Shown here: piece after piece, positions 22,401 through 50,165 of the stretch | How positions within the stretch are numbered: the first letter of the stretch is position 1 | How the letters are laid out: every line of letters begins with the position of its first letter | From: a virus | Virus record (IMG/VR): IMGVR_UViG_3300030061_002072 | Span: 4,940-55,104 of that record | DNA: 50,165 nucleotides | Reading direction: 5' to 3' (one strand) | Made by a program: the position numbers and the translations under genes | The notes under the pieces: generated by a model | What the model saw: the letters and a program-made list of their open reading frames with translations, nothing else | The model's database searches: none | What the model was told of the DNA's origin: nothing

Positions 22401-25400
22401 GTAGTCATCAGGGCTATATTGAGTGAGTTTTCTGTAATTTGTAGCTTCTGAAACTGCACTTCCATTGTATTGTATACCATTCTTGTGTAGTATGCTCCAC
22501 CATGGTATGTGTAATGTGTGAGCAGGGGTTGCATTGCTGAACATTTTGCTATATGGGAATCCCCTTCTTGTGAATGCAGGGCTTTCTGTCAATTGTGCAC
22601 CTATGTGATTGTATGACATTAGTGGTGGTATATTGGTGAACTGGCTACCGGGGTCATTACTCACATCTAATATCTTCTCATTGATGAAAACTTCACAACC
22701 TCGCACGTCTGCATTAGTGGCCTTTGCAAGCACTAGAGTAAGTCCACCCTTGTCATTTGAGTCCCCAGCGTCCTTTTTGATGCCAATAACAGTGTTTATC
22801 TGCTGACTAGTAAGTTCAGTCGTCGAGTTGTTATGATAACCAACTAGTTGGTGGTTGAAGAGATTTGGTTGTATCACAATCTGATATGCACCAACCTCAG
22901 CAGGGTCAGGGAAGTGCCTACCTAGTGTATATTCACTAGCGGCCTCTAGCACTATACTGTGGCCACCTGCCTTGTTTACCGTGCCTGCTAGTGCAGTAGC
23001 AGAGCCACTATCAGTTCCCTTGTCAGAAGATGCTAATACACCATAACCATCATATTTGACACTCGTCTCGAACATCAATGTAAATGCGCCTCCGTGTATA
23101 TCGCTGGGCAGCGACGGAGCTGCGTTTACACCACTGAAGTTTATCTCACTGTCAAGTGGCTTGATATTGTCCTCAAGGGACGTTCCCAAGGATGTTTCAA
23201 CACCTGATAGTTTGTTGATTGCAGTTGTATGCTTGTCGAAAAGACCTGCGTCATGGAAAGAGGTTGTCGAATTAAAATCGGCCAAATGGCGCCTGTAGAG
23301 GCTTTGATACGCTGGATGTGCCCAATGACCGGGTAGCATCGGCATTGTTGGTGTGACGAAGTGATGCCCCATTCTGGGGTAAGGCATGGGTGTCATCACG
23401 GGTTTGCTGTAAGCATCGAATCCAACTGTTTGCCCACTGACATGGTAGAGGGTGTTGGCCATGTCTGGGGAGTTACCGCTCACCTCTGCATGGTCCCTCA
23501 GCCTCCTTGCTGCGAAGAATCGGTTGCTACCTGCTGGTATGTAGTAGGATGGGACGACTTTGAGGTCAGTGACGGTCTGCCCTGCCATGAAGGTAGCGAA
23601 GTTAACATCGCCCACTACTGTGATAGAGGTGCTGCCTTGAGCGGTGTAGGAGCACACAGCACCCTCGTCGGTGGTGGGGTTGTACACCCTGAGGAACTTC
23701 CTAGTGTCCTGCACTGTGCCGAAGCCAGCGGCAAAGACATCAGTGTCCAACACCGCATCGATAGTCAGGACGCTTGTGCTGCTGTTCCATGCTGTCACTG
23801 AGACTACGTCGTTCTCGACACCACCGGCGTGTGTGTAAACCGCTGGGTATCTGTGTGAGTGACTGTGACCCATCTTCGTCACGTGGAAGTACAGGGTTCT
23901 GTCATGGAGTTCGTAACTTGTGTTGAGTGGTGAGTTGTTGTTCCAAGCACCTAGTTCGGAGTCAAATGACACTGGGTTGATTCTCTCCCAGTTGTGATTC
24001 TCGTATGTCGGTCCTTGTCTCGGGCTGGACACTGAGTTGTCGAACAGGTGGGTTGTAACCGATGAGCCCAAGTCAGGATGATGCATACCACCAGTACCCA
24101 TGGTCTCGTTCTGGTATGCCTGTATGGGGTCGTAGCCCGAGCGCACCACTATGTTGCCGGGTATCGAGTTGGGGTCTGGTAACTGCACTTTGAGGTTGGG
24201 CTCCTTGCCACTGTTTGCAAGTGCAGGCGCCCTACCATCCACGCCTCTGTTCTCAGGAACACGGAAGCCTCGTATGATTGTGCCTAACGGGCTACCACCC
24301 TCTATCTTATGCATCTGACCGCTATCGTCCCTCACATTGATGCTTTGGAACTGCACTTCCTCATTCGGTATGTCAAGGACATTGCCTACCTTGTAGGGGT
24401 GCTTTCTAGCGAACTCAGGGTGTGATAATTCCTGTGCTTGTAACACTGGCATCATCGCGCTGTTGGTAGTTTCGAAAGAGAATCTGACATTACCGTATAG
24501 CTTCTCACCTGTGAGAATCGCTGCATTACTCTTCACACGTGTGACCCATGGCACTGCTCCTAACCCACGTGCGTTTATTGCAGGAAGGGAGAGGTTTCCA
24601 CCATCCATTCTTTTCCAAACCACGTTCTCCACTGAGAAATTATGTGCAGCGGAGTCCTCGTACATCTGGAAAGCATTAACATCACTCAACCAATAGTTTG
24701 CTGGCCAGTTAGTTGTGTGTGCCGTAGTATGACTATCAGCAGATGTATTTCTCTCCGCATCACCGGACTCAAGTAACACAGAGCCGACTGAGTGGTCTAG
24801 GTCGAACAACAAGTCTCCTATCTTGTTCAATCCCGGTACTGCGTTCTTCAGTTCCAATTCATTTGACTGAGCGGTGTTATTACCCGCATCACCATGGAAG
24901 TAGTTGCTGATTCCAGAAAACGTGGTAGCAGCCCAATTAGCACTAGCAAGATTGGCAGCAATTGGCACAGTTGTGCTGTCAACAATCAGTGCCTCTACGT
25001 TTGGCCCTGCGTTGGCTGGTGCGATAAATCTGTCCTGACCATGGAATCTCTCGTCCCACTGTGTGTTACCGGCGTATGTAATTGGGTTCGTGCTTTGACC
25101 TATGACCTGCAACCAGTCTCCATTGGCGGTTATGCCGTCCCTGTCGAACTTAGCGACAAGACTGCTTTCAGAGTCGTAACTGACAACTAGGAAAGCACTG
25201 GTGTAGAGTCCCTGAGGTAGAGTGAGTTCTTTTGGTAGGGGTGTGTTGTCTATGTAATTAGTAGGCACATTCCACTGATTGGCATCATTTGTGGTGTCTT
25301 CAGTATGTGTAAATGCATACGTGTAGGTATCGTATGCTCCACCGCTACCAGTCGTTAGATTGTACTTGGTGTAGAAGTTAGCCTTCTTCACGTGTGTAGC

Positions 25401-28400
25401 GACGTAGATGCCTATCCCATCTATGGTGGGTGTGCTCTCAGGGCTGTTTCTTATTGGTGCCACGACTGGTACATTGCTATGTGTGTTCATTACAGTACCA
25501 GCAGTTCCGTATGGGGAGAAGTTGAGCATGGGATGGTGAGCACCTAGACCTGCTGCATAACCAGTGCCTGATGTGTTCTTGGTTATCTTCAGGCTATTGA
25601 GATAGGAGTACCGTTCACCATGCCACCCTATCGCCCCTACAGGTCTAGTGCGGTCAACGGCGTCCGCTATGCCTGAAAAGTGAACTTGTGTCATGTGGTC
25701 TCTAGTCGACACATTCTCGTTGTTAAATCGGAGAGTGCCTGCCTTGGACCACACGTACAATGTGTATGTATCATCAACAGCAGCGAAGTCAGCAGATGCT
25801 CCGGCTTTGAAATCCTCCCAAGTCTGGGGGTCTTCGGCTTTACTCTGACCATGTATCCTGTTCGGTGCCATGTAGAATCTCACTTTCCAGTTGCTGGAAG
25901 ACTCATTGAGAACTTCCCTTGAGTGATAGGGCACCCAAGCGACTGCGCCATTTGACTCCTTGATTGCCCTCAGCCAACCAGATGTCGGTAATTGTTCAAG
26001 GTACTCCTGCGTGAATGTCGTGCCGTCCCCGTCATTGAACTCGCTGTCTATGTAGTTGCCAGTGGATGAACTGTCGTTATACTCATCTAAAGTGCCTAGA
26101 TGCCTCCAGCCGTATCTATCCTGACGCATCGCGTTGCCCATGGACGGCATGTGAGTGCCACCTAGCGCCTTGAGCGAGCCAGCACCGGGGAATGCGTTGA
26201 TTGCCGCTCCTAACACCGTGGCCAACTCTTCACCGTTCTGGCATCGAGTCGCATCGACAACTATGTATTCCATGTCTACATCACCGCTTACCACAGCCTC
26301 ACTGCCGTTACCGACGTAGTCCAGTATGCGGTCAGTCAACGGCCCTGCGACTCTGAACGCAGTTGGGTGTATCTGGTTGGCCCTCTCCCAGTTGCTACTG
26401 AGGACTCTTGAGTCCGACTTGCCCTTGTGTGGTGGGTTGAATGTGAGTTGGTTGTCCAACCAAGAGCCGCCGGGGTGGTATCCACCGTCCATGTGCCACA
26501 CCGTATCAGCAGCCATGGTGATGCCGAAGCCTATGGTAGGTGTGTGCATCTTGGGTGTGACTCTCGTGAGGTCATTGGCATCATATGGAGTGTCATCATT
26601 CAGTTGTTGTCCGTAGTGCCTACCGTGCTCTGGTCTCTGTTTGAGTTCCTCCTTCATTGTGTAGCCTGCTGGTGACTCCCAGTTGACCATCGCCCTCCAA
26701 TGGAAGCCAGCGGTGGTGTTGTAGTAGTCCTTGCGAGGTGGTAGGAAGGAGTGCCTACTGTTCTCTATCGAGTTGGGGAACAGTTGCTGGTCATTGCCAA
26801 GACTGCTGTAGCCGCCCTTGAAGGGCACACTCGCCCATGTGTTACCACTTGTGATTATACGACCCGGATATGGCTCTTTTGCGTTCGTAGTGCCACTTTC
26901 ACTATCCAAGGCAGCCTCGTTGGTAAACGGGAAAGCCTGCCCCGGACCGAATATTAGATATGTAGTCTTGCTGTCAATACTGTTCACATGGTCTTCGTAT
27001 CTCGCGGTCGGGTGTGCAAATCTAAGCACCATTGGTACTGGTTTTGCCTTGACCACGCCACTAGTGTATGTGGAGGAGCCTCTGTTCAAATCAGGTGACA
27101 GTATGTTCTGTTTATTGAATACTGGAGGTGTGATACTGCCACGATGTTGGTTGCACAGAGCTGCGCCGGGGAAGAAGGCGAACATGGCGTTGGTGTCAAG
27201 CATAGCGAAACTCGTCGATATTTCACTGGCATTCTGAATACCAGAGACACCTGTAGGCCCGTTAGCGTACGGATGTGTGTAGAATGACGAGTAATCGTTT
27301 GTGGTACCATCGTTTACATCAAGCACGACACCGCTAAAGCCGCCACCGAAGAACAGGGGCACACTATGGTCCCTGCTGCTCTTACCACCACGGAAGTGGA
27401 CGATGGGCTCTGAGAACACACTGCCTATGGAACGAAGGCCGTTGAAATCAGGGTCGAAGTGTGTGCTGAGTATGTTGCCCTCGAATGTTATCTCTCTAGG
27501 CATGTTGTTAGAATCGTCTATATCCCAAGATAACTCTGTGGCAGCGTTTGTACCCACTTTGCTTTCAACGACTATCGACTTCTCATTCGTCAGGTATATT
27601 CTCTTCCTCTCACCGAACGATGGTATTCTGCTACCTGTCGTATCAGTACATGCTGGTATGAGGAACTGGAACATATTAGCACCAAGGGTCACTGTTGATT
27701 GCCAGTCCTTGGTGGTCTCAGCGATTGCTTTTCTCCTTGTTATCTGTAGTGTATCCGCTACGTTGACACGTAATTCGTCTATTGAGAAACTAGTTGTTGT
27801 ATTGGTAGCGGTAACTCGTCCTAGCACCCTATCAGCGGCATCTACAATCAGGTCCCCTACGGTGAACACGTTTGAGTTTCCACCATCTATTGCTATCGCA
27901 CCGGTGTGGCCCTCAGCAAATTCACCATCGACAACAACCGCAGAGACTGTAGAAAAACCCGTGGTGTAAATGGAATGTGGATTGTCTATGGAGGGTAGTA
28001 TGTGGTCTCCAGAGTATCTGGTATAATCCATTCCCTTTAGTCCTCTTGACCATTTATTTGTATTCAGTACAACGTTTTTGGAATCTACCAAATTAGGTGA
28101 TGCTGTATTTCCCATGGGTCCTTTTGCAGTTGTTCGTACTTGCAAAACTGTATATGGTACATATCCACAATCTATGTTTCTACTTGCATCTATATTAGCA
28201 TCAGTCACTGCACGTGATGTACCGAATGCATAACTAGCAGTGCCAGTGGGTCTTGTTACTTTTTCAACCTCACCGAATTCCAAGTGTGCTGCTTGAATAC
28301 CCAAATCCCTAAACACAGATGCATTGTAAGATGTATTCAATGGTTTTACTCTTTTGTTAGGATTATACGCTCGTATTTTTATCGCGTTGGGGCTAACACC

Positions 28401-31400
28401 CCACTCTCCAAACGTTTTACCATCGAAGGCATACATGTCTGTGCAGTCAAACGTATGCCCGTTTAAGCTGTTTACTTCATCTCCTGCATTGATTGCAGCA
28501 GCAGTCACAGCAGCGAGCAACTCATCTGTAACTAATGTGGTTTGATTCAATACAGAAGATATGAGATAAGAGGTGCTTGTGAGTGAGGACACTCCTGTAA
28601 CGCCATAGAACACAGTGCCGCTTCTATGAGTATATGACAACGTTAGACCCACATTCGCATCACCGGCACCGTCATAGTCGCTAATCTGTATGATACCGTC
28701 TTCCTTTGGGAATCCAAGATAACCTAGTTTGTCATCAGTAAAAGATGCGTCAAAGGGGGCAACAAAGGTAATTGATAGGGTTTCACTGCTCAATACCGCA
28801 GTGACTAAAGTAGCAGCGTTTGGTGCGGCGACACCTCTCCATTTTGCTCCTCTCCAACTACCCAAGCTCTCAGATACGGCTGAGAAACTCATTCTACCAG
28901 TGGCATCGCCGGAACCACTCATGGCACTGCCAATTGTAAAACCGCCCTGTGATACATCTCTGTCGTCTATGAATACGCATACCTCTTCCTCTATCGTGTC
29001 AGGCAGTGACGTGTTGCTATTGGAGAAGGACTCACCCATGGTTCTGTAGATGTATCTTAGAGTGTTCTCCCTACCTAGATTGTCAGTCAGGCTCAGACCG
29101 TATATCTGCCCTATGCCGACTGCGTCTTGGGACACCTGAGATGTGGGCACATGTGAGGAGTAAGTGGATGTCGATGTCGTGCCGTACCTGTTGTTGAACT
29201 TACTCTCGCCGTTGAAGCCAAAGCCCCAACTACCCGCATCTGGCGCAAAGCCGGGTACACCGCTTGCGACCAGACCACCGAAGTTGACTCTAGCAAGCGC
29301 ACTCGGCCCTGTCCTCAGACCTCTGACTAGGGATGAAGATGAACCCTTGATGTCAAGAGATTCCACATTGATTGAGTTGTGGTTCTTCCCGCTTATCGAA
29401 TCTGAGACTGCTCTCATCACTGGTGTGTCTTCGAAATCAGCAACGCTCCTGACATCCTCACCGCTCTCTATAGATGTCACATACTGCTGTAGTGTCGTTA
29501 TTGGTGCAAAGGGCCTGCCGTTCTTATCAAGAGGCATAGGGGCCGGGTGCATGTTCTCACCCTCTCTCTCATCTGGAAGGGCCCAGAAGTTTCTCCATCT
29601 GCCACCATGACCAACTAGGAACTGAGGTTGATACGATGTCTGCCCTGTGCTGTTGTCCAGCCAAGCGCAGAAATTTCTACCACTGGCACCCGGTACGGTG
29701 CTGTGTAGGACGATAGTGAAGCCTACGTCACCATTTAGGTCTTGCACCTCTCTTCCTATATGAGCACGGATGTATCCCATGTGCGTGCCCCTGTCACCGT
29801 TGTCTGTATGCCAGAAGGGGGCAGGGTCGTGAGCAGAGCCACTTAGCAATCTAGCGTTTAGAGCAGCATGCTGGTTTATCATACGGACTACTTCTTCTGC
29901 ACCACTGAGAGTATTGACAACACCATCCTTCTCCGCCACCTCACCCAAGTCTATCGTCAGTCTTCTGACGAAGCCCATGTCCTTCCACTGTGGTAGGTGC
30001 TGTAGTCTAGTTTCCTCATGGGAGGATAGGTCGAGTGATGTGTTGCGTATTCCCTTGAGACAGAGGAAGGCAGGTATGACTCTAGTGCCATCGGGAGTAT
30101 CGAAGAAAGTAGCAGGGTCTCTGAAAGTGCAATTGCTAGTGCCCTTTCTCAGGTCTATTAGGGAGTCAGTGTAGGAGTCCACAGCATCCACTGGTATTCT
30201 GGTGAAGTCATGTAACGGGTCAGCGATTTTGTGAAGTGATACGCTGTCGTTTGTTCTGGGTGTTAGGCTGTAGCCGTTTCTGAGTCCATCGACTGCACCC
30301 CCGTAGGAGTATCCAGTGTGGACGTAGTGTCCGTGTGACTTTCCGTACAACCTAGCGCCTGCTATGCTTCTACCATCAGTCGGGAAGTCATTGGTATCCT
30401 GATTATTGAATGTGGTTGAGTCCAACAAGTCTTCAGTATGTCGATTAGACAGGTCGTGGGCGTATGCGCTCTCTATGAACTTGGATTGCTGTGTGCTTCG
30501 TATGTATGGGTTCTGTGACAGGAATCCGTTAGTGACATCTATCTGCGTGGTCCACGGGCTTGGGCCTGCTCCGTTGTAGACAGCGTTGACCTTGTGTAGC
30601 CTGCTCCTTGTGCTGCCGCCGTCCTCAACCACTTCCTTAGGCCATCCTATCTGAACGGCATCAGGGCTAGTTTGTACCTGCATGTGTATGTCTTGGAATG
30701 CGATGAACTCCTTGTCATGTGCCACATCGTACAATAGCACACGCGCATGGTCGTCGTTTGATAGATAGGGGTCAATAAATGCCACAGTGGGTGCTTGTGA
30801 TACAGTCAGTCCTAATGCTAGGTAATTCTCCTCAACCGTTCTGTTGACGTGTTGGACATAGTTTCTGGCTGTTTCCAGACAGGTATTGCCAATCATGAAG
30901 TTCTCAAGCGGTATGCTGTCTCTGGGGTTGGTGGTGTCTAACTCACCAGCACCGCCATTGAAGGCGTTCCAGACCTGTGACTCGTTGTAGACTCCTCTGC
31001 TCTTGGCAAACAGCCCCTCAACAGCGTGCGGGTTGTTGTATGACATATTAGCCCATACGGTGTCACCATCACGGAATCCACCGGCTGAGTAGGGATTGAG
31101 CCATGTTGCATTGAGAACGGCATCCTTCTCCTCGTAGTCACCCATCCATACTGCTATTTTTGCATTGGATGGTATTACTGGCGTTGCGGCAGTCATGTTG
31201 ATGATTTGAGTGCCGTTTGCATCAGCGCTCTCGACTTCACTAACGATTCCTATTCTTCGTATTTTGTCAGTGCTAGTGTCTTCCAAGTAGTAGAGGATGT
31301 CGCCTTTCTTGACATTCGTGCCGTGTAGGTCGTTGACGTTCTTTCCACTGGCACCGTCTACGGTTATCTCGAACTCTGATGATGAGTCCGCGCTTTGTGC

Positions 31401-34400
31401 AGTAACGGTGACATCGGTAATGTTCAGGCTGTTCTTTAACTCACGATAGTACTGAGAGCCATCTGATACCTCTGTGGTTACTGAGGTCCCGAGTATGCTT
31501 CTACGTTTGCTTGTCAGGGTTATCTTGACGCCTTCAGGAAATCCCTGCGCGGCTTTCAATTCCTCATTGTCATTGAATGCCCCATTAGTGGTTCCCCCAC
31601 CCACTGTAACTGCTGTTGATGAAACAGCGGTTATCTCTCCAGCACTACTACCATCGGATTGGAAAAGTAAATCACCCACAGTAAATATCGTAGTTGCATC
31701 AACACCGTCTACAATCATGGCGCTAGTTGTTCCCTGTGCATAGGAACCACCACCAAGTGCAGTTCTATTGATTAATACACCAGTATCGACTAATGGATAT
31801 GTAGCACCGGATGTTTGGAAGACCAGTGTTATGCTGTTCTTAGGTGTTGCGACGCTGTTTATCGTCTTGATGTGGCCATGATACTGGTAACTGTACACCG
31901 TGCCATTGTCATCGTACTGCACCTCGTATCCCAAGTCCCCAACGGAGGAGGGAGCATTTGCTAGAGTATCGTATCCCAAGTCAGGGAACTTTGCGAAGTC
32001 CTCTTCACTGAGAGTGATTGTAACAGCCTGTTCCGGCACACCTGTGAGTCTAGTGACAGTTGCAGTCAGCACCTTACCAGTAGCACGTTTTACATCTACT
32101 CTAGGTGCGTGTGGATTGGACTCTGGCCCAGCCTTGAACTCAACGGCACTGACGTATTGTCGCAGGCCGTAGTCTACATTTCCACCCTGTGTCTTTACAC
32201 TGGCAGCATCGTGATGATATTCATCCCTGTTTTCGAAGTCGGAGGATGGTGTGAACTCATCTGAACTGATTGGTATCAGAGAACTGTCTATGCCTGCGTC
32301 GTTGATGAAGACGGAAATGCCCACTGCTAATGACTCAAAGAAGTTCGGGCTCTGCCCGTATGTAGCGTCGAGCAACTGTAAGTACCCATCGCTTCTATTG
32401 ACACTGGTGTACCAAGACCACTCACCATTGGCAAGATGCACCTTTCTGTAACGATACGCGGTGGTTACGCCTTTGTAAGTAGCAGTGCTTGTGGTTGAGT
32501 CTGGAAAGATGTTTATGTTGTTCACATACAGCCTTCTGTTAATGGTATCCCATTTTATTGCAAATGTCGAATCTAAGTATTCCCTGTTCTGCAAAGCTAT
32601 TGAAAACGCTGATTTGGCTTCCCTGTCTGCAAGTTCATTCTCGCTCTTGAATCTCCTACCGACCGGACTGGGATTGTATGTGTGTGCTGTATGAGTAGCG
32701 TCAACGTGTATTTTGAATGCATTACCGGGTCCAACAGAGTCGTGGAAGAACTGCTCAGAGAACAGGGGTATCTCCGCTATTGCCCTAGTGCTTGCGTACT
32801 GAGTCCCTAACTGATAGTCATGCTGTACATCGTTTAGAGACTGATGCATCCTATCATTCAAGGTAGTGCCGTTTTCCAAGTCAGATTCGTTTCCAAAGTC
32901 CGCTTCACTGAACACTGTGAAGTTACCGTTTATAGTGACGGAGGTACCACTGGTCGGTCCAACCATGAAGCCAGTAGCGTTGAGTAGTTTACCGACTGCT
33001 AGGTGCGAGGTGCCATCACTGGACAGGAAGTCCAAGGTAGACGCGCTGGCTGCGCTGAAGACAAACGTTGACCCAGTCTTGCTGTCGTACTTGGCACTGC
33101 TCCCATCAGGTAGGTGTATTCTACCATAACGAGGGAAGCCGTATGTTCCCCAAGATGCTAAATCAGTGCTTTCATTGTTCAAGGGCTTAACGTGTAGCGT
33201 CGCCGCACCAGTGCTCCAGTTGACGTCTAGTTGGTGTGCTGTCACTGAGTAAGACCTGCGGGTTGAATAGGACTCATGAGCAAGTATGCTCTTCTGAAAA
33301 ACAGGTCTGGTGTCCATGGCACCTTGACCCGGTCCACCTAGACTCACCGTGACCACAGGCGCATTGGGTTCTATCTCCTTGACAATATGGGAGTCTGGAC
33401 TTCCCTTCCCTGTGAAGTCTATTCTCCTAGATACGATGGAGTCTGCAACACCGACGCACCTAATCCCCTCTATACCACCTTGCTCACCCACAGTCTCATC
33501 AATGCTCCTAACCTTGGCACGACTCATCATGTAGAGTATAGACACACGATTGAGGACACCGCTGATATTCACATTAGAGAGAAGCATACTGCGTCTTCTA
33601 TCAGTCGGTTGCAGTATGATACGCATGTCAGCGGAGTTATTGCCAGTCAGTGTAAAGTTGTCAATAACATCGTACATCTCGTAAATGGGGGTTGCAGAAG
33701 TCACAGTGCCTGTGTCAAACTGACCAGCAGCAGGGCTGTTGGGTGTTACATCGGGCTCTAGTCTATCGTAACTGCCTTTATCTGTCAGGAGTTTTGTGTT
33801 CTTGACTTGATTGAAATAGAGCCTATGAAACACTGAATCATGGTCACCAGTGGTGCTGGTTGACTCAAGTATGACACCGGGAGTCTGATTCTGTATGGAG
33901 TCCGAGTTGTTCCTCGGTGTGTAGTTCGCTGGTGTGAGGGACTCATCAACCTCGTCATCGGAGGAGAAGCCCTCTGATGTATCACCCACAAAACTGTGGT
34001 CATAGAGTAGTTCATCGCCTACGTTTATCTCCTCTGTATCGACGTCGATGTAACCACCGGGTGAGAATAACGTGTGACCTGATGCGATTGAGTTGATGAT
34101 GGCATCGTAAACATACTCGCTACCGGAGACTAGAGTATCGGAGGACGGCACTGTCTTCTCTACCATGAGCAAGGGTTGCACTGTGCCACTCATGCTCGCA
34201 CCAGTCAGGTCGATGGCGTTGTAGTGTATCTCAACAAAGGGTGCTAGGGTTGGTGTCAGTTGCGTAAGCCTCGGTACGTGTAGTATAGCGACCCTGCTCT
34301 CCTTTGAAGGTTTAACGTGATACTTGCGTATGTCATCGCTGATGTGCGTCTGCGCATCGTCCGAATCATATACTTGGAAGGGCGGCACGGGTCCTTTTAG

Positions 34401-36200
34401 AGCAAAGGGTGTGTAATCGAAGTTAGGGCCACCAATCGCTATGAGTTTTCTCTTACCAGTGGGTGGACTACCAGTGCCATTGTATGAGTTGAACGCCACC
34501 GTAACAGTGCTGGAGTCTACCACATTGACAACTTCCATATTGCCAAACTCACGGTAAATATCTACCATACTATTTATTGAAACTCTATTGTGTATGCCTG
34601 TTTGCACTTCGTCATAGATGATTTCTATAACATCAGCGGACCCATCAGCTCTCTGGTCTATTATCTCCTCAGAGGACTTTGGTAGCATTCTCAGGTAACA
34701 GTGACCCTCGACGTGGTTGTTGGTGTGTCTACCACTATGACCTATCTGATACGCCTCATCGACCGTAGTAGGCCAAGTAGCCGCAAAAGGGTTGTTGGTG
34801 TCAGAGGATGTGGTGGCCATAGCGGATGAGTAGACGAAACCATGGTTCTGGAACTCACTCTCGTCAATCACCATCTGCCCTGTCCTATCGATAATCTGAG
34901 AAGTAAAGTGCGGAGGCTGATACGGGTTACCAGTCGCTGAGTCTAGGAGAAGGTCGGAACTCACTACAACGAAGTGGTTGTCCACTCCAGTGCTCCTAGT
35001 GTGTAAAGCAGGTATCATACCGTTGGTAGAGGAGGCGAAGTCTAGGTGTATGCTGGACACAAGTAGGTTGCCTGTATCGACGTTTATGCTGTGTAGCCTA
35101 ACTCTCTCAGGTGGTTTGCTGTTAGGCGCTTTGGTATCAGGGTCAATCCCATCTGGGTTGATTAGGAGGTTGTAGGGCGTATGGGAGATAGCATGTGTGG
35201 ATAGAGAGCCGGACTGATAGTCTAGAACTTTGTAGTCCCCGCTGGAGTACTTATGCACACCTGTGGAATCCTTGGAAAACACGTAGTTGCTAGTGACACT
35301 TGACAGCCCGGTCAAACTCTTTGCTAATGTTGTAGCATCCGCACTGGACATACTAATTTGGGAGACTGTAACGCTGACTCCATCTATAGTAGTGCTATTG
35401 TTTGCTATCGAGGAGAATGTAAACACACCTTCTATTGGTGATATTGGCTCTTCGAATCTATACAACAGCAGAGTCTCAGCATCTAAGTACGGACCATTGC
35501 CATCAACCATGCTTTGGTTAAAAGCAGCACTAATGTGTATACCCTCCATGGTGCCACGGAATCGCCCACCCTCACCGCCGATGAATGTGCGGTGAGACGA
35601 TGACCTGAGTGTCAGTCCCTTGTCCTTTGTTGATTCTGATGCCACCATGGCTCCATTGACATACAACTCCACTGCTGATGGTCTTACTGCAGCTACCACG
35701 TGTATGAGTGGCCTGTGATTCTTGTTCAAGTCAGTAGCATCGTCACTACCGCTGACGAATCTGTTGTACGAGTCCTGTATCCCCTGATACTCTATGTGGG
35801 GATAAACGGTTCCCTCGTATCTGTTAGACTCCTCATTCGCCGTGGTTAGTGTGACAGTTGTATCTCCTTGGTCCCCTGTAAGATGTGCTACAAACACAGC
35901 AGGGCCGGGTGTGTCTATGTTTCCTAGTGATAGCCTGAACTGTCCCTCCTTCTCGATGACTGTACCACCGCAGTCTGGTATGACCCATGCCTCGATTGTG
36001 ATGTACCCGTTGAAGGCTCCAGATGTAGCCCCCTGTGACCTGTATGAGAGGGGAGCGTCGGGTGAGAGGATGTTCCTGACATCATAGGTGTCTTGGGTTG
36101 TTTTGTCACCTAGCGTAGAGAAAGCACCCTCAGGCACTACGATGCTGTCAGTGATACCGTTGAAGAACATCGCATGGTTCTTACGGGTAATTACTGTCAC
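19419..36200 (-). CDS. Giant virion protein of 5,593 aa with LamG-like domains
   Basis: One uninterrupted frame of 16.8 kb, about 600 kDa, a third of the window. The N-terminus (AMFFNGITDSIVVPEG, then ITIEAWVIPDCGGTVIEKEG and VELYVNGAMVAS within 1-250) is a concanavalin/LamG-type fold; a second such domain lies near residues 4,340-4,480 (GGAFTLMFETSVKYDGYGV). Related beta modules with FTVGDL recur near residues 1,500 and 2,777. The rest is Asn/Ser/Gly/His-rich with many aromatic residues, no signal peptide and no membrane segment. GTG at 36200 has GGAGGAG 5 bases upstream. It lies between the distal tail protein and the hub, so it is likely a tail-tip or side-fibre adhesin. Two internal stretches are clearly AT-rich. 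Confidence 0.8.
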   Translation of the reverse strand: MTVITRKNHAMFFNGITDSIVVPEGAFSTLGDKTTQDTYDVRNILSPDAPLSYRSQGATSGAFNGYITIEAWVIPDCGGTVIEKEGQFRLSLGNIDTPGPAVFVAHLTGDQGDTTVTLTTANEESNRYEGTVYPHIEYQGIQDSYNRFVSGSDDATDLNKNHRPLIHVVAAVRPSAVELYVNGAMVASESTKDKGLTLRSSSHRTFIGGEGGRFRGTMEGIHISAAFNQSMVDGNGPYLDAETLLLYRFEEPISPIEGVFTFSSIANNSTTIDGVSVTVSQISMSSADATTLAKSLTGLSSVTSNYVFSKDSTGVHKYSSGDYKVLDYQSGSLSTHAISHTPYNLLINPDGIDPDTKAPNSKPPERVRLHSINVDTGNLLVSSIHLDFASSTNGMIPALHTRSTGVDNHFVVVSSDLLLDSATGNPYQPPHFTSQIIDRTGQMVIDESEFQNHGFVYSSAMATTSSDTNNPFAATWPTTVDEAYQIGHSGRHTNNHVEGHCYLRMLPKSSEEIIDQRADGSADVIEIIYDEVQTGIHNRVSINSMVDIYREFGNMEVVNVVDSSTVTVAFNSYNGTGSPPTGKRKLIAIGGPNFDYTPFALKGPVPPFQVYDSDDAQTHISDDIRKYHVKPSKESRVAILHVPRLTQLTPTLAPFVEIHYNAIDLTGASMSGTVQPLLMVEKTVPSSDTLVSGSEYVYDAIINSIASGHTLFSPGGYIDVDTEEINVGDELLYDHSFVGDTSEGFSSDDEVDESLTPANYTPRNNSDSIQNQTPGVILESTSTTGDHDSVFHRLYFNQVKNTKLLTDKGSYDRLEPDVTPNSPAAGQFDTGTVTSATPIYEMYDVIDNFTLTGNNSADMRIILQPTDRRRSMLLSNVNISGVLNRVSILYMMSRAKVRSIDETVGEQGGIEGIRCVGVADSIVSRRIDFTGKGSPDSHIVKEIEPNAPVVTVSLGGPGQGAMDTRPVFQKSILAHESYSTRRSYSVTAHQLDVNWSTGAATLHVKPLNNESTDLASWGTYGFPRYGRIHLPDGSSAKYDSKTGSTFVFSAASASTLDFLSSDGTSHLAVGKLLNATGFMVGPTSGTSVTINGNFTVFSEADFGNESDLENGTTLNDRMHQSLNDVQHDYQLGTQYASTRAIAEIPLFSEQFFHDSVGPGNAFKIHVDATHTAHTYNPSPVGRRFKSENELADREAKSAFSIALQNREYLDSTFAIKWDTINRRLYVNNINIFPDSTTSTATYKGVTTAYRYRKVHLANGEWSWYTSVNRSDGYLQLLDATYGQSPNFFESLAVGISVFINDAGIDSSLIPISSDEFTPSSDFENRDEYHHDAASVKTQGGNVDYGLRQYVSAVEFKAGPESNPHAPRVDVKRATGKVLTATVTRLTGVPEQAVTITLSEEDFAKFPDLGYDTLANAPSSVGDLGYEVQYDDNGTVYSYQYHGHIKTINSVATPKNSITLVFQTSGATYPLVDTGVLINRTALGGGSYAQGTTSAMIVDGVDATTIFTVGDLLFQSDGSSAGEITAVSSTAVTVGGGTTNGAFNDNEELKAAQGFPEGVKITLTSKRRSILGTSVTTEVSDGSQYYRELKNSLNITDVTVTAQSADSSSEFEITVDGASGKNVNDLHGTNVKKGDILYYLEDTSTDKIRRIGIVSEVESADANGTQIINMTAATPVIPSNAKIAVWMGDYEEKDAVLNATWLNPYSAGGFRDGDTVWANMSYNNPHAVEGLFAKSRGVYNESQVWNAFNGGAGELDTTNPRDSIPLENFMIGNTCLETARNYVQHVNRTVEENYLALGLTVSQAPTVAFIDPYLSNDDHARVLLYDVAHDKEFIAFQDIHMQVQTSPDAVQIGWPKEVVEDGGSTRSRLHKVNAVYNGAGPSPWTTQIDVTNGFLSQNPYIRSTQQSKFIESAYAHDLSNRHTEDLLDSTTFNNQDTNDFPTDGRSIAGARLYGKSHGHYVHTGYSYGGAVDGLRNGYSLTPRTNDSVSLHKIADPLHDFTRIPVDAVDSYTDSLIDLRKGTSNCTFRDPATFFDTPDGTRVIPAFLCLKGIRNTSLDLSSHEETRLQHLPQWKDMGFVRRLTIDLGEVAEKDGVVNTLSGAEEVVRMINQHAALNARLLSGSAHDPAPFWHTDNGDRGTHMGYIRAHIGREVQDLNGDVGFTIVLHSTVPGASGRNFCAWLDNSTGQTSYQPQFLVGHGGRWRNFWALPDEREGENMHPAPMPLDKNGRPFAPITTLQQYVTSIESGEDVRSVADFEDTPVMRAVSDSISGKNHNSINVESLDIKGSSSSLVRGLRTGPSALARVNFGGLVASGVPGFAPDAGSWGFGFNGESKFNNRYGTTSTSTYSSHVPTSQVSQDAVGIGQIYGLSLTDNLGRENTLRYIYRTMGESFSNSNTSLPDTIEEEVCVFIDDRDVSQGGFTIGSAMSGSGDATGRMSFSAVSESLGSWRGAKWRGVAAPNAATLVTAVLSSETLSITFVAPFDASFTDDKLGYLGFPKEDGIIQISDYDGAGDANVGLTLSYTHRSGTVFYGVTGVSSLTSTSYLISSVLNQTTLVTDELLAAVTAAAINAGDEVNSLNGHTFDCTDMYAFDGKTFGEWGVSPNAIKIRAYNPNKRVKPLNTSYNASVFRDLGIQAAHLEFGEVEKVTRPTGTASYAFGTSRAVTDANIDASRNIDCGYVPYTVLQVRTTAKGPMGNTASPNLVDSKNVVLNTNKWSRGLKGMDYTRYSGDHILPSIDNPHSIYTTGFSTVSAVVVDGEFAEGHTGAIAIDGGNSNVFTVGDLIVDAADRVLGRVTATNTTTSFSIDELRVNVADTLQITRRKAIAETTKDWQSTVTLGANMFQFLIPACTDTTGSRIPSFGERKRIYLTNEKSIVVESKVGTNAATELSWDIDDSNNMPREITFEGNILSTHFDPDFNGLRSIGSVFSEPIVHFRGGKSSRDHSVPLFFGGGFSGVVLDVNDGTTNDYSSFYTHPYANGPTGVSGIQNASEISTSFAMLDTNAMFAFFPGAALCNQHRGSITPPVFNKQNILSPDLNRGSSTYTSGVVKAKPVPMVLRFAHPTARYEDHVNSIDSKTTYLIFGPGQAFPFTNEAALDSESGTTNAKEPYPGRIITSGNTWASVPFKGGYSSLGNDQQLFPNSIENSRHSFLPPRKDYYNTTAGFHWRAMVNWESPAGYTMKEELKQRPEHGRHYGQQLNDDTPYDANDLTRVTPKMHTPTIGFGITMAADTVWHMDGGYHPGGSWLDNQLTFNPPHKGKSDSRVLSSNWERANQIHPTAFRVAGPLTDRILDYVGNGSEAVVSGDVDMEYIVVDATRCQNGEELATVLGAAINAFPGAGSLKALGGTHMPSMGNAMRQDRYGWRHLGTLDEYNDSSSTGNYIDSEFNDGDGTTFTQEYLEQLPTSGWLRAIKESNGAVAWVPYHSREVLNESSSNWKVRFYMAPNRIHGQSKAEDPQTWEDFKAGASADFAAVDDTYTLYVWSKAGTLRFNNENVSTRDHMTQVHFSGIADAVDRTRPVGAIGWHGERYSYLNSLKITKNTSGTGYAAGLGAHHPMLNFSPYGTAGTVMNTHSNVPVVAPIRNSPESTPTIDGIGIYVATHVKKANFYTKYNLTTGSGGAYDTYTYAFTHTEDTTNDANQWNVPTNYIDNTPLPKELTLPQGLYTSAFLVVSYDSESSLVAKFDRDGITANGDWLQVIGQSTNPITYAGNTQWDERFHGQDRFIAPANAGPNVEALIVDSTTVPIAANLASANWAATTFSGISNYFHGDAGNNTAQSNELELKNAVPGLNKIGDLLFDLDHSVGSVLLESGDAERNTSADSHTTAHTTNWPANYWLSDVNAFQMYEDSAAHNFSVENVVWKRMDGGNLSLPAINARGLGAVPWVTRVKSNAAILTGEKLYGNVRFSFETTNSAMMPVLQAQELSHPEFARKHPYKVGNVLDIPNEEVQFQSINVRDDSGQMHKIEGGSPLGTIIRGFRVPENRGVDGRAPALANSGKEPNLKVQLPDPNSIPGNIVVRSGYDPIQAYQNETMGTGGMHHPDLGSSVTTHLFDNSVSSPRQGPTYENHNWERINPVSFDSELGAWNNNSPLNTSYELHDRTLYFHVTKMGHSHSHRYPAVYTHAGGVENDVVSVTAWNSSTSVLTIDAVLDTDVFAAGFGTVQDTRKFLRVYNPTTDEGAVCSYTAQGSTSITVVGDVNFATFMAGQTVTDLKVVPSYYIPAGSNRFFAARRLRDHAEVSGNSPDMANTLYHVSGQTVGFDAYSKPVMTPMPYPRMGHHFVTPTMPMLPGHWAHPAYQSLYRRHLADFNSTTSFHDAGLFDKHTTAINKLSGVETSLGTSLEDNIKPLDSEINFSGVNAAPSLPSDIHGGAFTLMFETSVKYDGYGVLASSDKGTDSGSATALAGTVNKAGGHSIVLEAASEYTLGRHFPDPAEVGAYQIVIQPNLFNHQLVGYHNNSTTELTSQQINTVIGIKKDAGDSNDKGGLTLVLAKATNADVRGCEVFINEKILDVSNDPGSQFTNIPPLMSYNHIGAQLTESPAFTRRGFPYSKMFSNATPAHTLHIPWWSILHKNGIQYNGSAVSEATNYRKLTQYSPDDYYLFMRSTFGSVGSQLTINGYTSLYLDIYDKYRRSISISPKCIVQSFNTSGTIVVDNANTFPMFPYYEQEVQYTAKNGNVYSKALASVDGNTAATVNIPKTLNLASKSGADGFWDNMFNGAILTLTHSYDTLPAGDIITDTSKSVFANILPDIIDGNQDTNSRFVPDAFLCMWHHNLGRPNTYFSDNTSRSWKGAPVNKAQYNSMPEHFETIHYHDFTHSISTGPFDFLIKRPNITRDGQVTSGNSTHDAGGTNVMLSGFWPCGSRGGPHASKLDLYGMASASWNVHATSTSANFSSDSNLEWVDSDDDGSYAVSSGIATGSMATTRRRPYGHRNAVRQAYNRPRYDLYPPRALYEATASGSGQNTTNYDAGPLVQTEAYSSGWLYGGGAGDSAATKALTYVGVMERQTNFTGMLNQDQEGWQVRYSDGRRMTRPFGTPVRTIRNPTGVERDWWGDIEGKGITSLSIASQHYLVDWWGNERGEDVRRTPVRGFGIRPSWDCADAYDIGTNSAYARIYNSGKPLFNLKGIADLTNGNISVTTNYTIPRFGGVLNSKNNNSTTTLVDVFSPVHSLRIGDMGNGRGVRYPTAFNESLLTEISSPNHKTGIVLSHNTAEPLFGDGLLRPRNDVLQADEVKRGISAKLGIDDNGLLKSEATVSDRVEEVSGTTVHKDPVSRTSPRIGIDAEVVEGVEQSHVVINTEAHSLHTDRNVGQRVVLQGSMQIEGSLTDANYNTMSFSRQTAGSTLSAAHKYSHTNAFRPYGGSYIIETKSYSGLFDDTGWGVASLTGSNDTSNPYQDATNYTSDTVRNNEDDRIVRFVLRPIRVLDANHVEVFRIHNSLNATSPQHLQNYLHATSGGKYGIFTYETPNGRAPTANLSSGRAVPDTNGPYLPIFTFDPTGAFETPSSMGPKLLGSEVSGFSNALSTDVSRLIITENTLQHHRSDAPRRRVEKETDDETTKSDFTVKPRFSQSLHNKGHKGDVSFNVTDHSGDGA
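21880..22640 (-). other. AT-rich island inside the giant gene
   Basis: Counting bases 22201-22320 gives 37 G+C of 120 (31 percent), against 38 of 60 (63 percent) at 26161-26220 in the same gene. The frame stays open (about residues 4,520-4,770), so it is coding, but its codon use is unlike the flanks. It may be a module acquired by recombination. Confidence 0.6.
28000..28450 (-). other. Second AT-rich stretch inside the giant gene
   Basis: Bases around 28050-28400 are visibly richer in A and T than the flanks, with runs such as TTTTTATC, while the frame continues (about residues 2,583-2,733). The edges are less sharp than for the island near 22,200. Confidence 0.45.
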
Positions 36201-45714: not shown

Positions 45715-46854
45715 TCACTTTAGGTCACGAATACTCCCTTGTGCGCCGAAGAAAGTGGTCCATATCTCACCCATGGTTCGGTATAGTCCCTCTTGACCCA
45801 ATCTGTTGATTGCGAATGGGTCGCCAGTCTCGATTCCGCTCTCGAAGTACTGCGTTGGTATTGCAGTGCTAAAGTAGAGGTAGTCTGTATCTAGGTAGTA
45901 AATCTTGGATAGGTTTCCGTCGTCATCCATGTCCTTGGTTGGGATGATTGGTACACCGTTGTAGGTTGCGACGATGAATCCGGCTTCCATACCGGGAACA
46001 CCTTTCACACCGTTGTAGGTTGGTGTAACTCTCTTCTCTTCCATGAACCTCTGCTGGGACTGTAGTAGTTGCTGTAGTCTCATTAGAGTGTCGTATCCAG
46101 TTAGCATGACCTTGGGGTTTCCACCACGCTCCCAGATTTGCTGGAACAATGTGTCCAGTTGGTCTAGGGATAGCGTTCGGTCAGTACCACCGCTGTCACA
46201 GTTGACTTCTGCGTCAGACCATGAGTTAGCGGACCTGTCGATGCTGTATAGGTCCATATCTGCGTCTGCGCTCACGTGAGTTGTACCGCCTCCCATTGCT
46301 GAGTGGCTTGCAGTAACTCGGTCTAGTGACTCGAAGTTGTTTGCTGCTGGTGTGTCGACGTCTGTTAGAAGCATCTTGTTGACCATCTCTGCGTGGTGCT
46401 TACCCATCTCTTCCTTTAGGACTGCTCGGATGTCTCCCAATCCGTCGTCCCTGTCTGCTAGGAAGATAGCTGTCTCAGACATATCGAACGTGTGTGCGAT
46501 AGTCTTTGGCTTTGCAGCGATGTGCTGGAAGGTAGGCTTCACAGTGTCTGGTAGTATTGCATTCTCAGCTACACCACCGTGGACTACACCTGCGTTAGGC
46601 TTGTCTGTGATAACTCTCCAACCACTCCTGTCCCAAGGTCTCTTGGGTAGGATGCTGAAAGCGTTGAACTCTTGGTTTAGTTGCGACCAGACCTTGCGAC
46701 CGTAGATTGCTTGGTATGTACCAGCAGTCGTGGACAGCATAGGACTGTCAGCCTTGAGCAACTCGCTACCGGAGTAGGAGTAACCCATTGCGTTTCCGGC
46801 GCCATAGTAATAGCGCTCCATGTCAGTTATTGTTCGTACGTAATCTCTTGCCAT
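45715..46854 (-). CDS. Major capsid protein, HK97 fold
   Basis: A 379-aa capsid candidate. Its N-terminus is MARDYVRTITDMERYYYGAG. The body shows an extended middle (IAAKPKTIAHTFDMSETAIF), a long spine-like helix (IRAVLKEEMGKHHAEMVNKM), and a C-terminal domain with TPTYNGVKGVPGM and VATYNGVPIIPTKDMD, the P-domain and A-domain style of HK97-type capsids. It lies immediately behind the protease gene with GAGGTGA 6 bases before its ATG, consistent with high expression. Length is usual for the fold. The order protease, capsid, decoration supports it. Confidence 0.85.
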   Translation of the reverse strand: MARDYVRTITDMERYYYGAGNAMGYSYSGSELLKADSPMLSTTAGTYQAIYGRKVWSQLNQEFNAFSILPKRPWDRSGWRVITDKPNAGVVHGGVAENAILPDTVKPTFQHIAAKPKTIAHTFDMSETAIFLADRDDGLGDIRAVLKEEMGKHHAEMVNKMLLTDVDTPAANNFESLDRVTASHSAMGGGTTHVSADADMDLYSIDRSANSWSDAEVNCDSGGTDRTLSLDQLDTLFQQIWERGGNPKVMLTGYDTLMRLQQLLQSQQRFMEEKRVTPTYNGVKGVPGMEAGFIVATYNGVPIIPTKDMDDDGNLSKIYYLDTDYLYFSTAIPTQYFESGIETGDPFAINRLGQEGLYRTMGEIWTTFFGAQGSIRDLK

Positions 46855-46871: not shown

Positions 46872-47732
46872 TTACTCCGGGTTGAATGCCCTTGTAGCCA
46901 GATTGTGGACTTCACTCCATGACATTCTGGCTAGGTCTTCTGTTGAAGGCACGCTGACTGTTGGCTCTGCTGACTTCTGAATGGTTTCACCCACTGCTGG
47001 TGCAACGCCTGCCTCGATTCTCTCGGTCAGTGCTTCAATTGATTTCTGTAGGTCTGCTAGAGGACCGCGTGCATCGTATGCTGCTGCCTCGGCTTTTGCG
47101 ATTTCCTCTTGGCGCTCGTTTGAGTAGCGACTTGCAAAGTGGCTCTCAAGGCTTCCTCGGAACTCCTGCTCTAGTGCAGCAGCCTTGTAGACTTCGTATG
47201 CGGCCTCTACATCTGCGTCACTAACAAGTGCTGGGTCTAGATAGTCAGATTTCTTGACTTCTTTCTTACCACCGCTACCGGTTGTTCTGGAAATAGCGTT
47301 AGTAGAGGGAGCACCGTTTTCTTGTGCTCGGCCTTTTACTTGACCACCGAAGTAGTCAGCACCGTCTCCAATAGACTCTGGTGTGGAACCCAAGTTAGCT
47401 TTGGCGAGGTCATCGAAATGGGCTCTTGCGCCATCGATGTCGACTCCACCGCTCTTTAGGGTGTCTTCCATCCAGTTGAGGTAATCTGAAGTAATGACAT
47501 CGGAAAACTCTTCAGACTTTTTCTTGTCTTCTTTGTCCTCTTCTTTCTTGTCTTCGCCCTTCATGTAGGCTTTCTCTTTGTCATCCTTATCCTCGTCTTT
47601 GCTGTCTTTCTTGCTTTCCATGTGTTCTTTCAGACCTTCGGGCATACCCTTCTCCATGGAGTCGAGTCTTCCTTCTAGACGAGAGAGCACATCGCTCATC
47701 TGTTTCATCATGTCGTCATTTTCTTCTGTCAT
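46872..47732 (-). CDS. Nested scaffold protein, 286 aa (internal start in the protease gene)
   Basis: ATG at 47732 lies in frame inside the protease gene (its residue 179) and is preceded by AAAGGAG with an exact 8-base spacing, stronger than the site of the full-length start. The product is a scaffold-like protein: Lys/Glu/Asp-rich coils (KKDSKDEDKDDKEKAYM), then helical segments to the end. Lambda C/Nu3 is the known precedent for a scaffold made from an internal start of a protease gene. Whether it is used here is inference, but the site is clear. Confidence 0.7.
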   Translation of the reverse strand: MTEENDDMMKQMSDVLSRLEGRLDSMEKGMPEGLKEHMESKKDSKDEDKDDKEKAYMKGEDKKEEDKEDKKKSEEFSDVITSDYLNWMEDTLKSGGVDIDGARAHFDDLAKANLGSTPESIGDGADYFGGQVKGRAQENGAPSTNAISRTTGSGGKKEVKKSDYLDPALVSDADVEAAYEVYKAAALEQEFRGSLESHFASRYSNERQEEIAKAEAAAYDARGPLADLQKSIEALTERIEAGVAPAVGETIQKSAEPTVSVPSTEDLARMSWSEVHNLATRAFNPE

Positions 47733-48266
47733 GTTTATGTCTCCTTTATCTTCTTTTAATATGCTAAAAGTTGCTTCTGGGTTTATTCCTTTTTCACAAA
47801 TAGTGATTTCGTGTAGTTCAAGTTTACTGATTTCTTGGTAGTCGCCCCTTTTTGGGTCCGATTTCCTCATTCGCTTGAATGCTTGGCCTCCGATGCTGAA
47901 TCCCCTTAGACTTCCCTTGCGTATTTCCGCTGAGACTTCCTTGGCCTTCTCGATGTCACTTCTGAGTTGTACTACAACAAACATCCCGACATCGTCGACT
48001 TCGCTTTTCCATAACCTCCCTTCACTATCTGTGTAATTTGGAACAACTTCTCCGACTTGTATATTTGAGTGCGCTAGTTGGACGTTTCTGTACTTCGGGT
48101 CTTCCATGAACTTCTGAAATGCGTCCTTCAATGCCCCCCTTGTGATTATATCGCCCTGCTTGTCAACCAACTCGACACTGGCGTAACCAGCGACAATGAG
48201 GTCTCTTCCACCCTTGAGGAGGGAAATCGACTCATCTCTTCTGAGTAGTTGCTCACTTAGGACCAC
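46872..48266 (-). CDS. HK97-family prohead protease fused to scaffold, 464 aa
   Basis: The N-terminal 175 residues are a U35/S78-type protease: QLAHSNIQVGEV with catalytic His66, RGFSIGG with Ser124, and LELHEITICEKGINPEATFS, the typical acidic-residue region. It matures the capsid and clears the scaffold. Residues 180-464 are charged, coiled, scaffold-like, with a C-terminal capsid-binding-type end (WSEVHNLATRAFNPE). GTG at 48266 is the start; an ATG out of frame at 48286 is not. A nested start makes the scaffold alone. Position before the capsid gene is canonical. Confidence 0.85.
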   Translation of the reverse strand: MVLSEQLLRRDESISLLKGGRDLIVAGYASVELVDKQGDIITRGALKDAFQKFMEDPKYRNVQLAHSNIQVGEVVPNYTDSEGRLWKSEVDDVGMFVVVQLRSDIEKAKEVSAEIRKGSLRGFSIGGQAFKRMRKSDPKRGDYQEISKLELHEITICEKGINPEATFSILKEDKGDINMTEENDDMMKQMSDVLSRLEGRLDSMEKGMPEGLKEHMESKKDSKDEDKDDKEKAYMKGEDKKEEDKEDKKKSEEFSDVITSDYLNWMEDTLKSGGVDIDGARAHFDDLAKANLGSTPESIGDGADYFGGQVKGRAQENGAPSTNAISRTTGSGGKKEVKKSDYLDPALVSDADVEAAYEVYKAAALEQEFRGSLESHFASRYSNERQEEIAKAEAAAYDARGPLADLQKSIEALTERIEAGVAPAVGETIQKSAEPTVSVPSTEDLARMSWSEVHNLATRAFNPE

Positions 48267-48324: not shown

Positions 48325-50145
48325 TCATGCATCTAAATCGTTGTACTGCTCTTCCTTTTCCTTCTTTTCTTTAGGCTTCTTAGGATAGTCGGATGGCTTT
48401 TCTGGGTCTTCTTCAGGTCTTTCCTTCATGTCCCAGTCGGGTATGGCGTGCTCAGAAGTTAGACTAGTTGGTCCTCTAGGACTAGCTATATCAGAACCAA
48501 CGTCTATTCCCAACGCCCTACCGCCACTCATAGGATAATGACCACTGCCTGCTTTTTCCAAAGCCTCCAATGCTTTCTCCATTATCAGCAAGGCCTTCAG
48601 GGTGTCTTTTGGTTTCAACAGAATGTTCTTGTCCTTCTTGGGTTTGAGTAGACCACCGCTCTGATGCTCTATTCTCTTAGCGCGTTCTTCGGTCATACCG
48701 TCTTTTGCATTGTTCTCATCCCAATCTGCTCTATCTGCGTTAGTGCTAAGATAATCAAATTCTTTTTTCTCTTTCAACAATTCATTGAAACCTTGTCGCC
48801 AATAAGGTTCTAGACTGTTAGCGAGTCTTAGAGAATAATCCGACTTGGTTATACTACCTATAGCCGCCATTGGATTTACAGGCTCGTTATCGACTATCTC
48901 GTACTTGACTAAATCCTCTGGTAAATGTATTACAAAGTGACCTCTATCGATTTCCATAGCAAAGGGAATGTGTATGTTCTCTACCGCCTTTGCAAGCAAA
49001 ACCCACTTTGGATGCCTCTCCTCTCCTTTCATATACGTAGACTTAGCATCCCTCAAGAGTAATTTTTGCCCATCACCGCCGAGGTCCTTGATAGCATCCT
49101 CGAAACCAACCTCATCAGTAACACGTATGGATTCGGGGCTAGGGACATGAACAGGCTCATGACTTTCGAACTGTCCCCTCAGTAACTTAACTCGCTCTCT
49201 AGTAGTAAGGTCAGTGACATCCGTCTCCTCGTACAGCATTATGTCGTTTATGTGCAAATCATCACCGACTATGGTGCAATCAATGACATAATCCCTCTCA
49301 CAGACCTTCCTGAGTGATGCTCTTATCTCATCATCGACGCCGACTTTCTCGCCATCCTCGTCAGTGATGTCTATTCTTTTTCCCTTTCTCTTCACTTTCA
49401 CTCTCTTACCATCGTGATACTTCGATATGACCCACTCGCCAGTAAAGCCCCGTAGTTGCTCCATATCCTCAATCTCAAATATTCTGTGAAGCGGGTCAAT
49501 GAGTGGCAGTTCCTTAGGAAGTTCCGCTTTCAACATTTTTCCAACCTGATAGAAATCATCAACCGGTGCCTCACCGGTATTCTGGTTTATTCTCATTTGG
49601 TTGTTCTGCAAAGCAGAGAGTTGTGATAAACCGGGACTGGAAAGCAGTTCATCGACATACTCTGGAGTGTCTTGGAACAGAGCCCGTATCCAAGGCTCGC
49701 TGACTGAGTTTAACAATTGCTCATTCGGCATGTTGGCACCAACCACAGGAGTATTTTGTGAACCCATAAACTCGTGACCGATGGTCGGTGACATGGGATA
49801 TCCGTAGTCCATTCTGCCTGAGTTGAAAGCCGGGACCACTGTGTTGCCCTCTAGACTGGATACTGGTCTTATCGGTACGGTCATCTTACCATGGACTGGT
49901 TTTGTTACACCACCAGCACTGGCATCCTCTAGAGGACCGGATTGTCCCTCGTCAAATGTGTAAATGCCGTTTGACATTGCTTGGTAATATGCTTTCATTC
50001 TTTTCGATGAGGCCTGAATGGGAAAAGCACCTCGGCTTGATTTACCTCTAGGAGGCAATGGATGGGGGTGAACTTCTAAACCGTATGCGGTTAAATCACC
50101 TCTTTCTCTAAATTTTGGACTTCCTAAACGAGTAAGCGCACTCAT
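48325..50145 (-). CDS. Head-module protein with degenerate ATP-dependent DNA ligase-like domain, 606 aa
   Basis: Residues about 235-390 follow the order of the ligase nucleotidyltransferase fold: WVISKYHDGKRVKV (motif I region; Lys242 three, not two, before Asp245-Gly246), YVIDCTIVGDDLHINDIMLY (motifs III and IIIa; DGE is DCT), VTDLTTRERVKLL (as after motif IIIa in ligases), GQKLLLRDAKSTYMKG (motif IV; the Lys is Arg) and HPKWVLLAK (motif V). Key catalytic residues are changed, so it is probably non-enzymatic. The first 230 residues are Pro/Ser-rich and unassigned; the end is charged (KKPKEKKEKEEQ). It lies before the protease, where a portal or minor head gene is usual, but it does not read like a portal. 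Start at ATG 50145, overlapping the upstream stop. Confidence 0.6.
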   Translation of the reverse strand: MSALTRLGSPKFRERGDLTAYGLEVHPHPLPPRGKSSRGAFPIQASSKRMKAYYQAMSNGIYTFDEGQSGPLEDASAGGVTKPVHGKMTVPIRPVSSLEGNTVVPAFNSGRMDYGYPMSPTIGHEFMGSQNTPVVGANMPNEQLLNSVSEPWIRALFQDTPEYVDELLSSPGLSQLSALQNNQMRINQNTGEAPVDDFYQVGKMLKAELPKELPLIDPLHRIFEIEDMEQLRGFTGEWVISKYHDGKRVKVKRKGKRIDITDEDGEKVGVDDEIRASLRKVCERDYVIDCTIVGDDLHINDIMLYEETDVTDLTTRERVKLLRGQFESHEPVHVPSPESIRVTDEVGFEDAIKDLGGDGQKLLLRDAKSTYMKGEERHPKWVLLAKAVENIHIPFAMEIDRGHFVIHLPEDLVKYEIVDNEPVNPMAAIGSITKSDYSLRLANSLEPYWRQGFNELLKEKKEFDYLSTNADRADWDENNAKDGMTEERAKRIEHQSGGLLKPKKDKNILLKPKDTLKALLIMEKALEALEKAGSGHYPMSGGRALGIDVGSDIASPRGPTSLTSEHAIPDWDMKERPEEDPEKPSDYPKKPKEKKEKEEQYNDLDA

Positions 50146-50165
50146 CGCCCCATACTCGGGATTTG
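50142..50165 (-). CDS. Last codons of an upstream head gene (cut by window edge)
   Basis: The minus strand reads CAA ATC CCG AGT ATG GGG CGA TGA, and the TGA (50144-50142) overlaps the ATG of the 606-aa gene as ATGA. By gene order it could be the portal end, but only seven residues are visible. Confidence 0.35.
   Translation of the reverse strand, partial: QIPSMGR

Follow-up and report, generated by a model that had tools for sequence, protein, structure and literature searches.

Several papers on magroviruses list a DNA ligase as part of the replication machinery, and in one group A magrovirus genome the annotated "ATP-dependent DNA ligase" adjoins the prohead protease gene (PMC7318539). 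Neither a loss of the active site nor a head-module setting was mentioned in the magrovirus literature found, the original magrovirus paper aside. A literature search on inactive or pseudo DNA ligases gave mainly work on mammalian ligase IV and no work on viral heads. Catalytically inactive LIG4 promotes repair (PMC9638927); unlike the protein considered here, it is a cellular enzyme that was inactivated experimentally and is not a head protein. In our study, we examined a stretch of 50,165 nucleotides (the window) of the viral IMG/VR record IMGVR_UViG_3300030061_002072, positions 4,940 to 55,104, at the end of which a large gene precedes the prohead protease gene. The C-terminal third of the encoded magrovirus-like head-module protein, which contains 1.7-2.1 thousand residues, was found to be an ATP-dependent DNA-ligase adenylation domain, and the whole catalytic apparatus of this domain was lost once and never regained.

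The end of the window coincides with the end of the record, and the reading frame of the gene runs open through both. The full gene was found in the near-identical IMG/VR contigs L001 and L002, where it forms an open reading frame (ORF) of 1737 amino acids (L002:2608-7821), and the window contains residues 1126-1737 of this protein. The preliminary description had read the gene as a 606-amino-acid protein; this ORF exists in the window, but its ATG corresponds to Met 1132 of the complete protein, of which it is the C-terminal third. The residue numbers of the domain are given below in the 606-residue reading. The gene order in the near-identical contigs was portal, three small genes, the 1737-amino-acid gene, prohead protease and major capsid protein (MCP).

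A scan with a six-sequence profile of the domain gave 166 related viral stretches, and 80 loci were kept, comprising 61 loci with a degenerate domain (41 distinct domains) and 19 with intact motifs (18 distinct domains). DNA_ligase_A_M (PF01068) was the sole Pfam match of the window ORF in a single-sequence scan, with an E value of 0.01, which is under the family cut-off. The same family was matched by 41/41 distinct degenerate domains, with a best E value of 6e-07. A profile restricted to the degenerate domains had DNA ligases as its top PDB matches, though just at E 0.01-0.02, and hhalign aligned it with the intact-motif relatives at a probability of 99.8 and an E value of 5e-28. The AlphaFold2 (AF2) model of the domain, built from a 59-sequence alignment, had a predicted local distance difference test score (pLDDT) of 90.9 and a predicted template modelling score of 0.86; the model from six close homologues alone had a pLDDT of 36. 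The best PDB matches of the confident model in Foldseek were archaeal DNA ligases (best E 7e-10), and its best named viral matches were also DNA ligases. The model contained four strands after motif V, and motif VI was not recognised in the degenerate domain. The ligase-like nucleotidyltransferase fold, proposed by eye in the preliminary description, was thus confirmed by the model, the Foldseek matches, the family matches and the hhalign comparison. A PDB search with a seven-sequence alignment of the whole fragment gave no match, tblastn against named phages detected no relative either of the large protein or of the intact ligases described below, and no relative was found in the cellular genome contigs scanned.

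The domain resembles the archaeal ATP-dependent DNA ligases (PDB 3rr5, 4eq5, 2cfm, 3gde; PF01068) in its fold and in the order of its landmarks. These ligases keep the catalytic Lys, the Glu and the Lys of motif V, whereas the window domain has lost them and sits in a head-module protein. The series of landmarks was present in the proposed order on the minus strand (Table 1), including a TDLTTRER stretch at residues 311-318. Residue counts were taken from alignment A5, which consists of 59 sequences (41 degenerate and 18 intact). The catalytic Lys of motif I, the Glu of motif III, the Glu of motif IV and two Lys of motif V were each found in 0/41 degenerate domains and in 18/18 intact domains. 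The Lys of motif IV was Arg in 41/41 degenerate domains and remained Lys in 18/18 intact ones. The Phe of motif IIIa stacks on the adenine in ligases, and it was retained in 8/41 degenerate domains. The scaffold residues, in contrast, were kept: the Gly and Arg of motif I, D289, D301, R318, D366, S369, Y371, G374 and P379-K380-W381 were invariant residues in all 59 sequences. The changes of DGE to DCT and of the motif IV Lys to Arg, noticed earlier in the single sequence, therefore extend to every degenerate domain. The suggestion that the motif I Lys was shifted by one, to K242, did not survive; the position aligned with the catalytic Lys is Y243, and K242 was Lys in 6/41 homologues and V, I, T, D or another residue elsewhere. 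A relocated catalytic nucleophile at K242 was ruled out, as the residue is not conserved. Among the three residues proposed for a conservation check, D289 and R365 were invariant and K242 was variable. Judged from these residues, ligation by the degenerate domain is ruled out.

Table 1. Features of the large head-module gene and its neighbours in the window.
Feature	Position	Strand	Evidence or remark
C-terminal 612 codons of the head-module gene, cut by the record end	48325..50163	-	Open frame; full-length copies in near-identical contigs
Degenerate ATP-dependent DNA-ligase adenylation (nucleotidyltransferase) domain, residues ~205-454 of the 606-residue reading	48784..49533	-	AF2, Foldseek, PF01068
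RGFTGEW, signature common to the intact head-slot ligases	49432..49452	-	
Motif I region SKYHDGKR, residues 241-248	49402..49425	-	Tyr243 at the catalytic Lys position
Motif III D289-C290-T291 (DGE in ligases)	49273..49281	-	Asp invariant, Glu gone in 41/41
Motif IIIa region HINDIML, residues 298-304	49234..49254	-	Asp301 invariant, Phe mostly gone
Motif IV region QKLLLRD, residues 360-366	49048..49068	-	Glu gone; Lys replaced by invariant Arg365
Motif V region PKWVLLAK, residues 379-386	48988..49011	-	Two of three Lys gone; PKW invariant
Prohead (head maturation) protease with C-terminal extension, directly downstream	46872..48266	-	PHROGs head maturation protease, E 7e-14
HK97-type major capsid protein, gene after the protease	45715..46854	-	PHROGs major head protein, E 8e-60

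The ligase-like domain was the best conserved part of the large protein. The ratio of nonsynonymous to synonymous substitution rates (dN/dS) in the motif I-V region was ~0.03 among seven close genes, many of whose dS values were near saturation, and was likewise ~0.03 in a second group; most of the N-terminal part had values of 0.12 and 0.27. In the close pair L012/L014, dN was 0.005 and dS was 0.47. The invariant scaffold and the low dN/dS identify the domain as a maintained pseudo-enzyme, and no other part of the protein is under purifying selection as strong as that on its fold.

The nearest relatives found were intact-motif ligases that occupy this gene slot in sister viruses. This group comprised 19 loci (L072-L075 and L077-L091) encoding proteins of 842-920 amino acids, a few of whose ORFs end at a contig edge. 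Its motifs were QEKYDGMR, LDxE, HVFD, EGV(V/I/L)xKD and PKWxKWKK; motif VI was not recognised in the head-slot ligases. The intact proteins matched PF01068 at E 2e-31 and PDB DNA ligases at E 4e-21, and from their motifs they are likely to be active. The slot directly upstream of the prohead protease was occupied by the degenerate gene in 61/61 loci and by the intact ligase in 19/19 loci (80/80 in all). Both groups contained an N-terminal signature, IF(E/D)xxDM...GF(T/S)GEW, with variants. In the tree, the degenerate domains formed one clade (99/97), and the degenerate and intact domains together excluded the separate ligases of genomes G007 and G017 (99/93); the tree contains only two outgroup ligases and has long branches. 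The head-slot ligases of the sister contigs are thus alike in slot, domain, N-terminal signature and sister position, whereas they differ in their intact motifs I-V, in their length (840-920 against 1700-2140 amino acids in the degenerate group) and in their N- and C-terminal regions. The thermosome gene, which was found in 8/9 of the degenerate-clade records searched, was found in none of the four records searched that have an intact head-slot ligase.

The C-terminal ~300 residues of the intact head-slot ligases (L074, L083 and relatives) form a conserved region with GYHEYxxxGDKFxxxxHxRVVPL and no Pfam domain. In the sister group, proteins of 900-1060 amino acids were located between the portal and the head-slot ligase (L074:3335-6103, L083:2800-5988), and their similarity to the large protein of the window group was not detectable. 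The small slot genes of the sister group and the slot proteins of HVTV-1, vir519 and vir335 were also considered as homologues of the large protein, and hhalign showed none.

The preliminary description had regarded an inactivated nucleotidyltransferase in a head-module gene as a repurposed enzyme, and this reading is supported by the confirmed fold and the lost catalysis and is strengthened by the intact counterpart, which occupies the same slot. The explanation that we favour, by a small degree, is that a conserved dead ligase domain serves as the binding part of a head-internal protein. The large protein would be packaged in the prohead, and the protease encoded next to it might remove an N-terminal leader by cleavage between hydrophobic-Leu-Lys and Ala/Ser/Gly. 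The pseudo-ligase domain would then bind another head protein, the portal or the packaged genome at an end or a nick, and this binding would serve assembly, genome retention or ejection. Taken separately, the role of the domain as a non-catalytic binding module for a head partner, the portal or a genome end or nick is a tentative proposal. It is rather doubtful, and worth stating as a wider possibility, that a lineage of archaeal tailed viruses had a ligase in its head module, that in the magroviruses this ligase turned into a packaged, conserved and non-catalytic module which keeps hold of the genome end or is ejected along with the DNA, and that the sister viruses still package an active ligase which seals the incoming genome. 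If the favoured explanation is true, the protein would clearly exemplify the conversion of an enzyme into a structural component of a tailed-virus head, and the occurrence of intact and dead forms in one gene slot makes the two comparable.

The gene position, in the head module and always before the protease, points to the prohead, and it is an evenly balanced prospect that the protein belongs to its core or is cargo within it, possibly with a protease-cut N-terminal leader. In T4, a conserved capsid targeting sequence directs internal proteins into the prohead, and the injected IPI is proteolysed (PMC3012670). In our study, most members of the large-protein family contained (D/E)LLK(S/A) near residue 18, and in many of these proteins, which have over 100 lysines, no other site of the type scored higher. 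The MCP had a conserved site of this kind at a distance of ~25-35 residues from its N-terminus, and the protease had one at its beginning; such a site near the N-terminus was found in 6/15 head-slot gene families vs 2/22 downstream families. Hydrophobic-Leu-Lys followed by Ala/Ser/Gly recurred near the N-termini of the large protein, the MCP, the protease and several small head-gene products, and it may target these proteins to the capsid as a leader and mark a maturation site. Candidate protease sites bracketing the pseudo-ligase domain had moderate scores only and are not claimed. Several small head-slot ORFs (L077, L079, L087 and L091) were found to begin like MSWxxILKA.

Several points weigh against the favoured explanation. 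The enrichment of the leader motif is only moderate, the protease copy of the motif may merely be the first strand of the fold, and gene position alone is insufficient to show membership of the virion. The 59-sequence alignment used for the AF2 model included the 18 intact ligases. The N-terminal 1300 residues had no PDB match below E 0.3 and gave isolated weak PHROGs matches only. The large protein and its domain are acidic and ill-suited to plain DNA binding; the mean net charge was -6 in the degenerate domains vs ~0 in the intact relatives. The DNA-gripping part of the virion suggested earlier is therefore not favoured.

Among the alternatives, an ejected cargo protein is unlikely. Here the protein would be packaged and injected, and its dead ligase domain would bind nicks, ends or partners of the host ligase and thereby act as a decoy or as a shield that protects against the repair or defence systems of the host. 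Internal proteins that counteract host defence are packed and ejected by T4 and P1 (PMC3012670; PMC12810830), and HVTV-1 encodes a protein with zeta-toxin and ADP-ribosyltransferase domains between the portal and the protease. This protein, gp115 (L104:4539-8480), matched the two domains at E 3e-20 (zeta toxin) and E 1e-08 (ADP-ribosyltransferase), and it looks like a multi-effector cargo; as it sits there, the portal-protease region has the appearance of a place for large cargo proteins. It resembles the large protein in being a large multidomain protein in the matching head-module region, but it carries other enzymes and its homology to the large protein was not detectable. Moreover, host-directed factors usually change fast, whereas the ligase-like domain is the most conserved part of its protein. 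A repeated VSDPTEQAPNRWT-type stretch was observed after LKD in gp115.

A pure protein-protein scaffold is equally improbable. The domain would in that case be a docking surface for the protease or scaffold, or for the portal, in prohead assembly, with no contact to DNA or nucleotide, which agrees with the acidic character of the domain and the protein and with a gene that always adjoins the protease gene. It leaves unexplained the cleft-lining residues that are invariant in 41/41 degenerate domains (the motif I Arg, the S-x-Y-x-x-G loop and PKW), some of which may be structural. A sensor of a nucleotide (ATP/AMP) or cap-like ligand on the inactive fold, the former also suggested in the preliminary description, is very improbable, since the adenylate-holding positions (the motif III Glu, the two motif V Lys and, in 33/41 domains, the IIIa Phe) are lost and adenylate binding by the degenerate domain is accordingly unlikely from its residues, even though the snurportin m3G-cap-binding domain was weakly matched by 17/41 degenerate domains. 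Snurportin is a non-catalytic, cap-binding use of the capping-enzyme fold; snurportin-1 is a cellular cap-binding protein and not a head protein.

Separate ligases were also found in related genomes. G017 contained both a head-slot ligase and a separate ligase of 521 amino acids (L092:853-2418), which ends in a motif VI-like RFPRYVKYRDDK, and G007 contained a separate ligase of 379 amino acids elsewhere in the genome (L096:1222-2361). Among the nine degenerate-clade records of more than 90 kb, which are possibly incomplete, eight had no further PF01068 domain and none had an NAD-dependent ligase domain. The annotated magrovirus ligase (Apasviridae, Aoguangviridae) resembles the window gene in adjoining the prohead protease in one group A genome (PMC7318539), but it is described as a replication gene, and G007 has its separate ligase as well. 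The ligase annotated in that genome probably belongs to the degenerate head-slot family. The ligase homology was thus already annotated earlier, and the replisome annotation may in part refer to the pseudo-ligase; the claim that magroviruses carry their own replicative ligase needs gene-by-gene checking.

The record of the window encoded a family B polymerase and a thermosome, and the MCP was closest to those of HVTV-1 and HCTV-1 (33-34%). As this gene content and MCP kinship agree with the published descriptions of Magrovirales, we infer that the window virus is a magrovirus of marine Poseidoniales archaea. The thermosome-type chaperonin gene was located at 5735-7246 of the window on the plus strand. 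The tail region contained a single open frame of 5593 amino acids at 19419-36200 on the minus strand.
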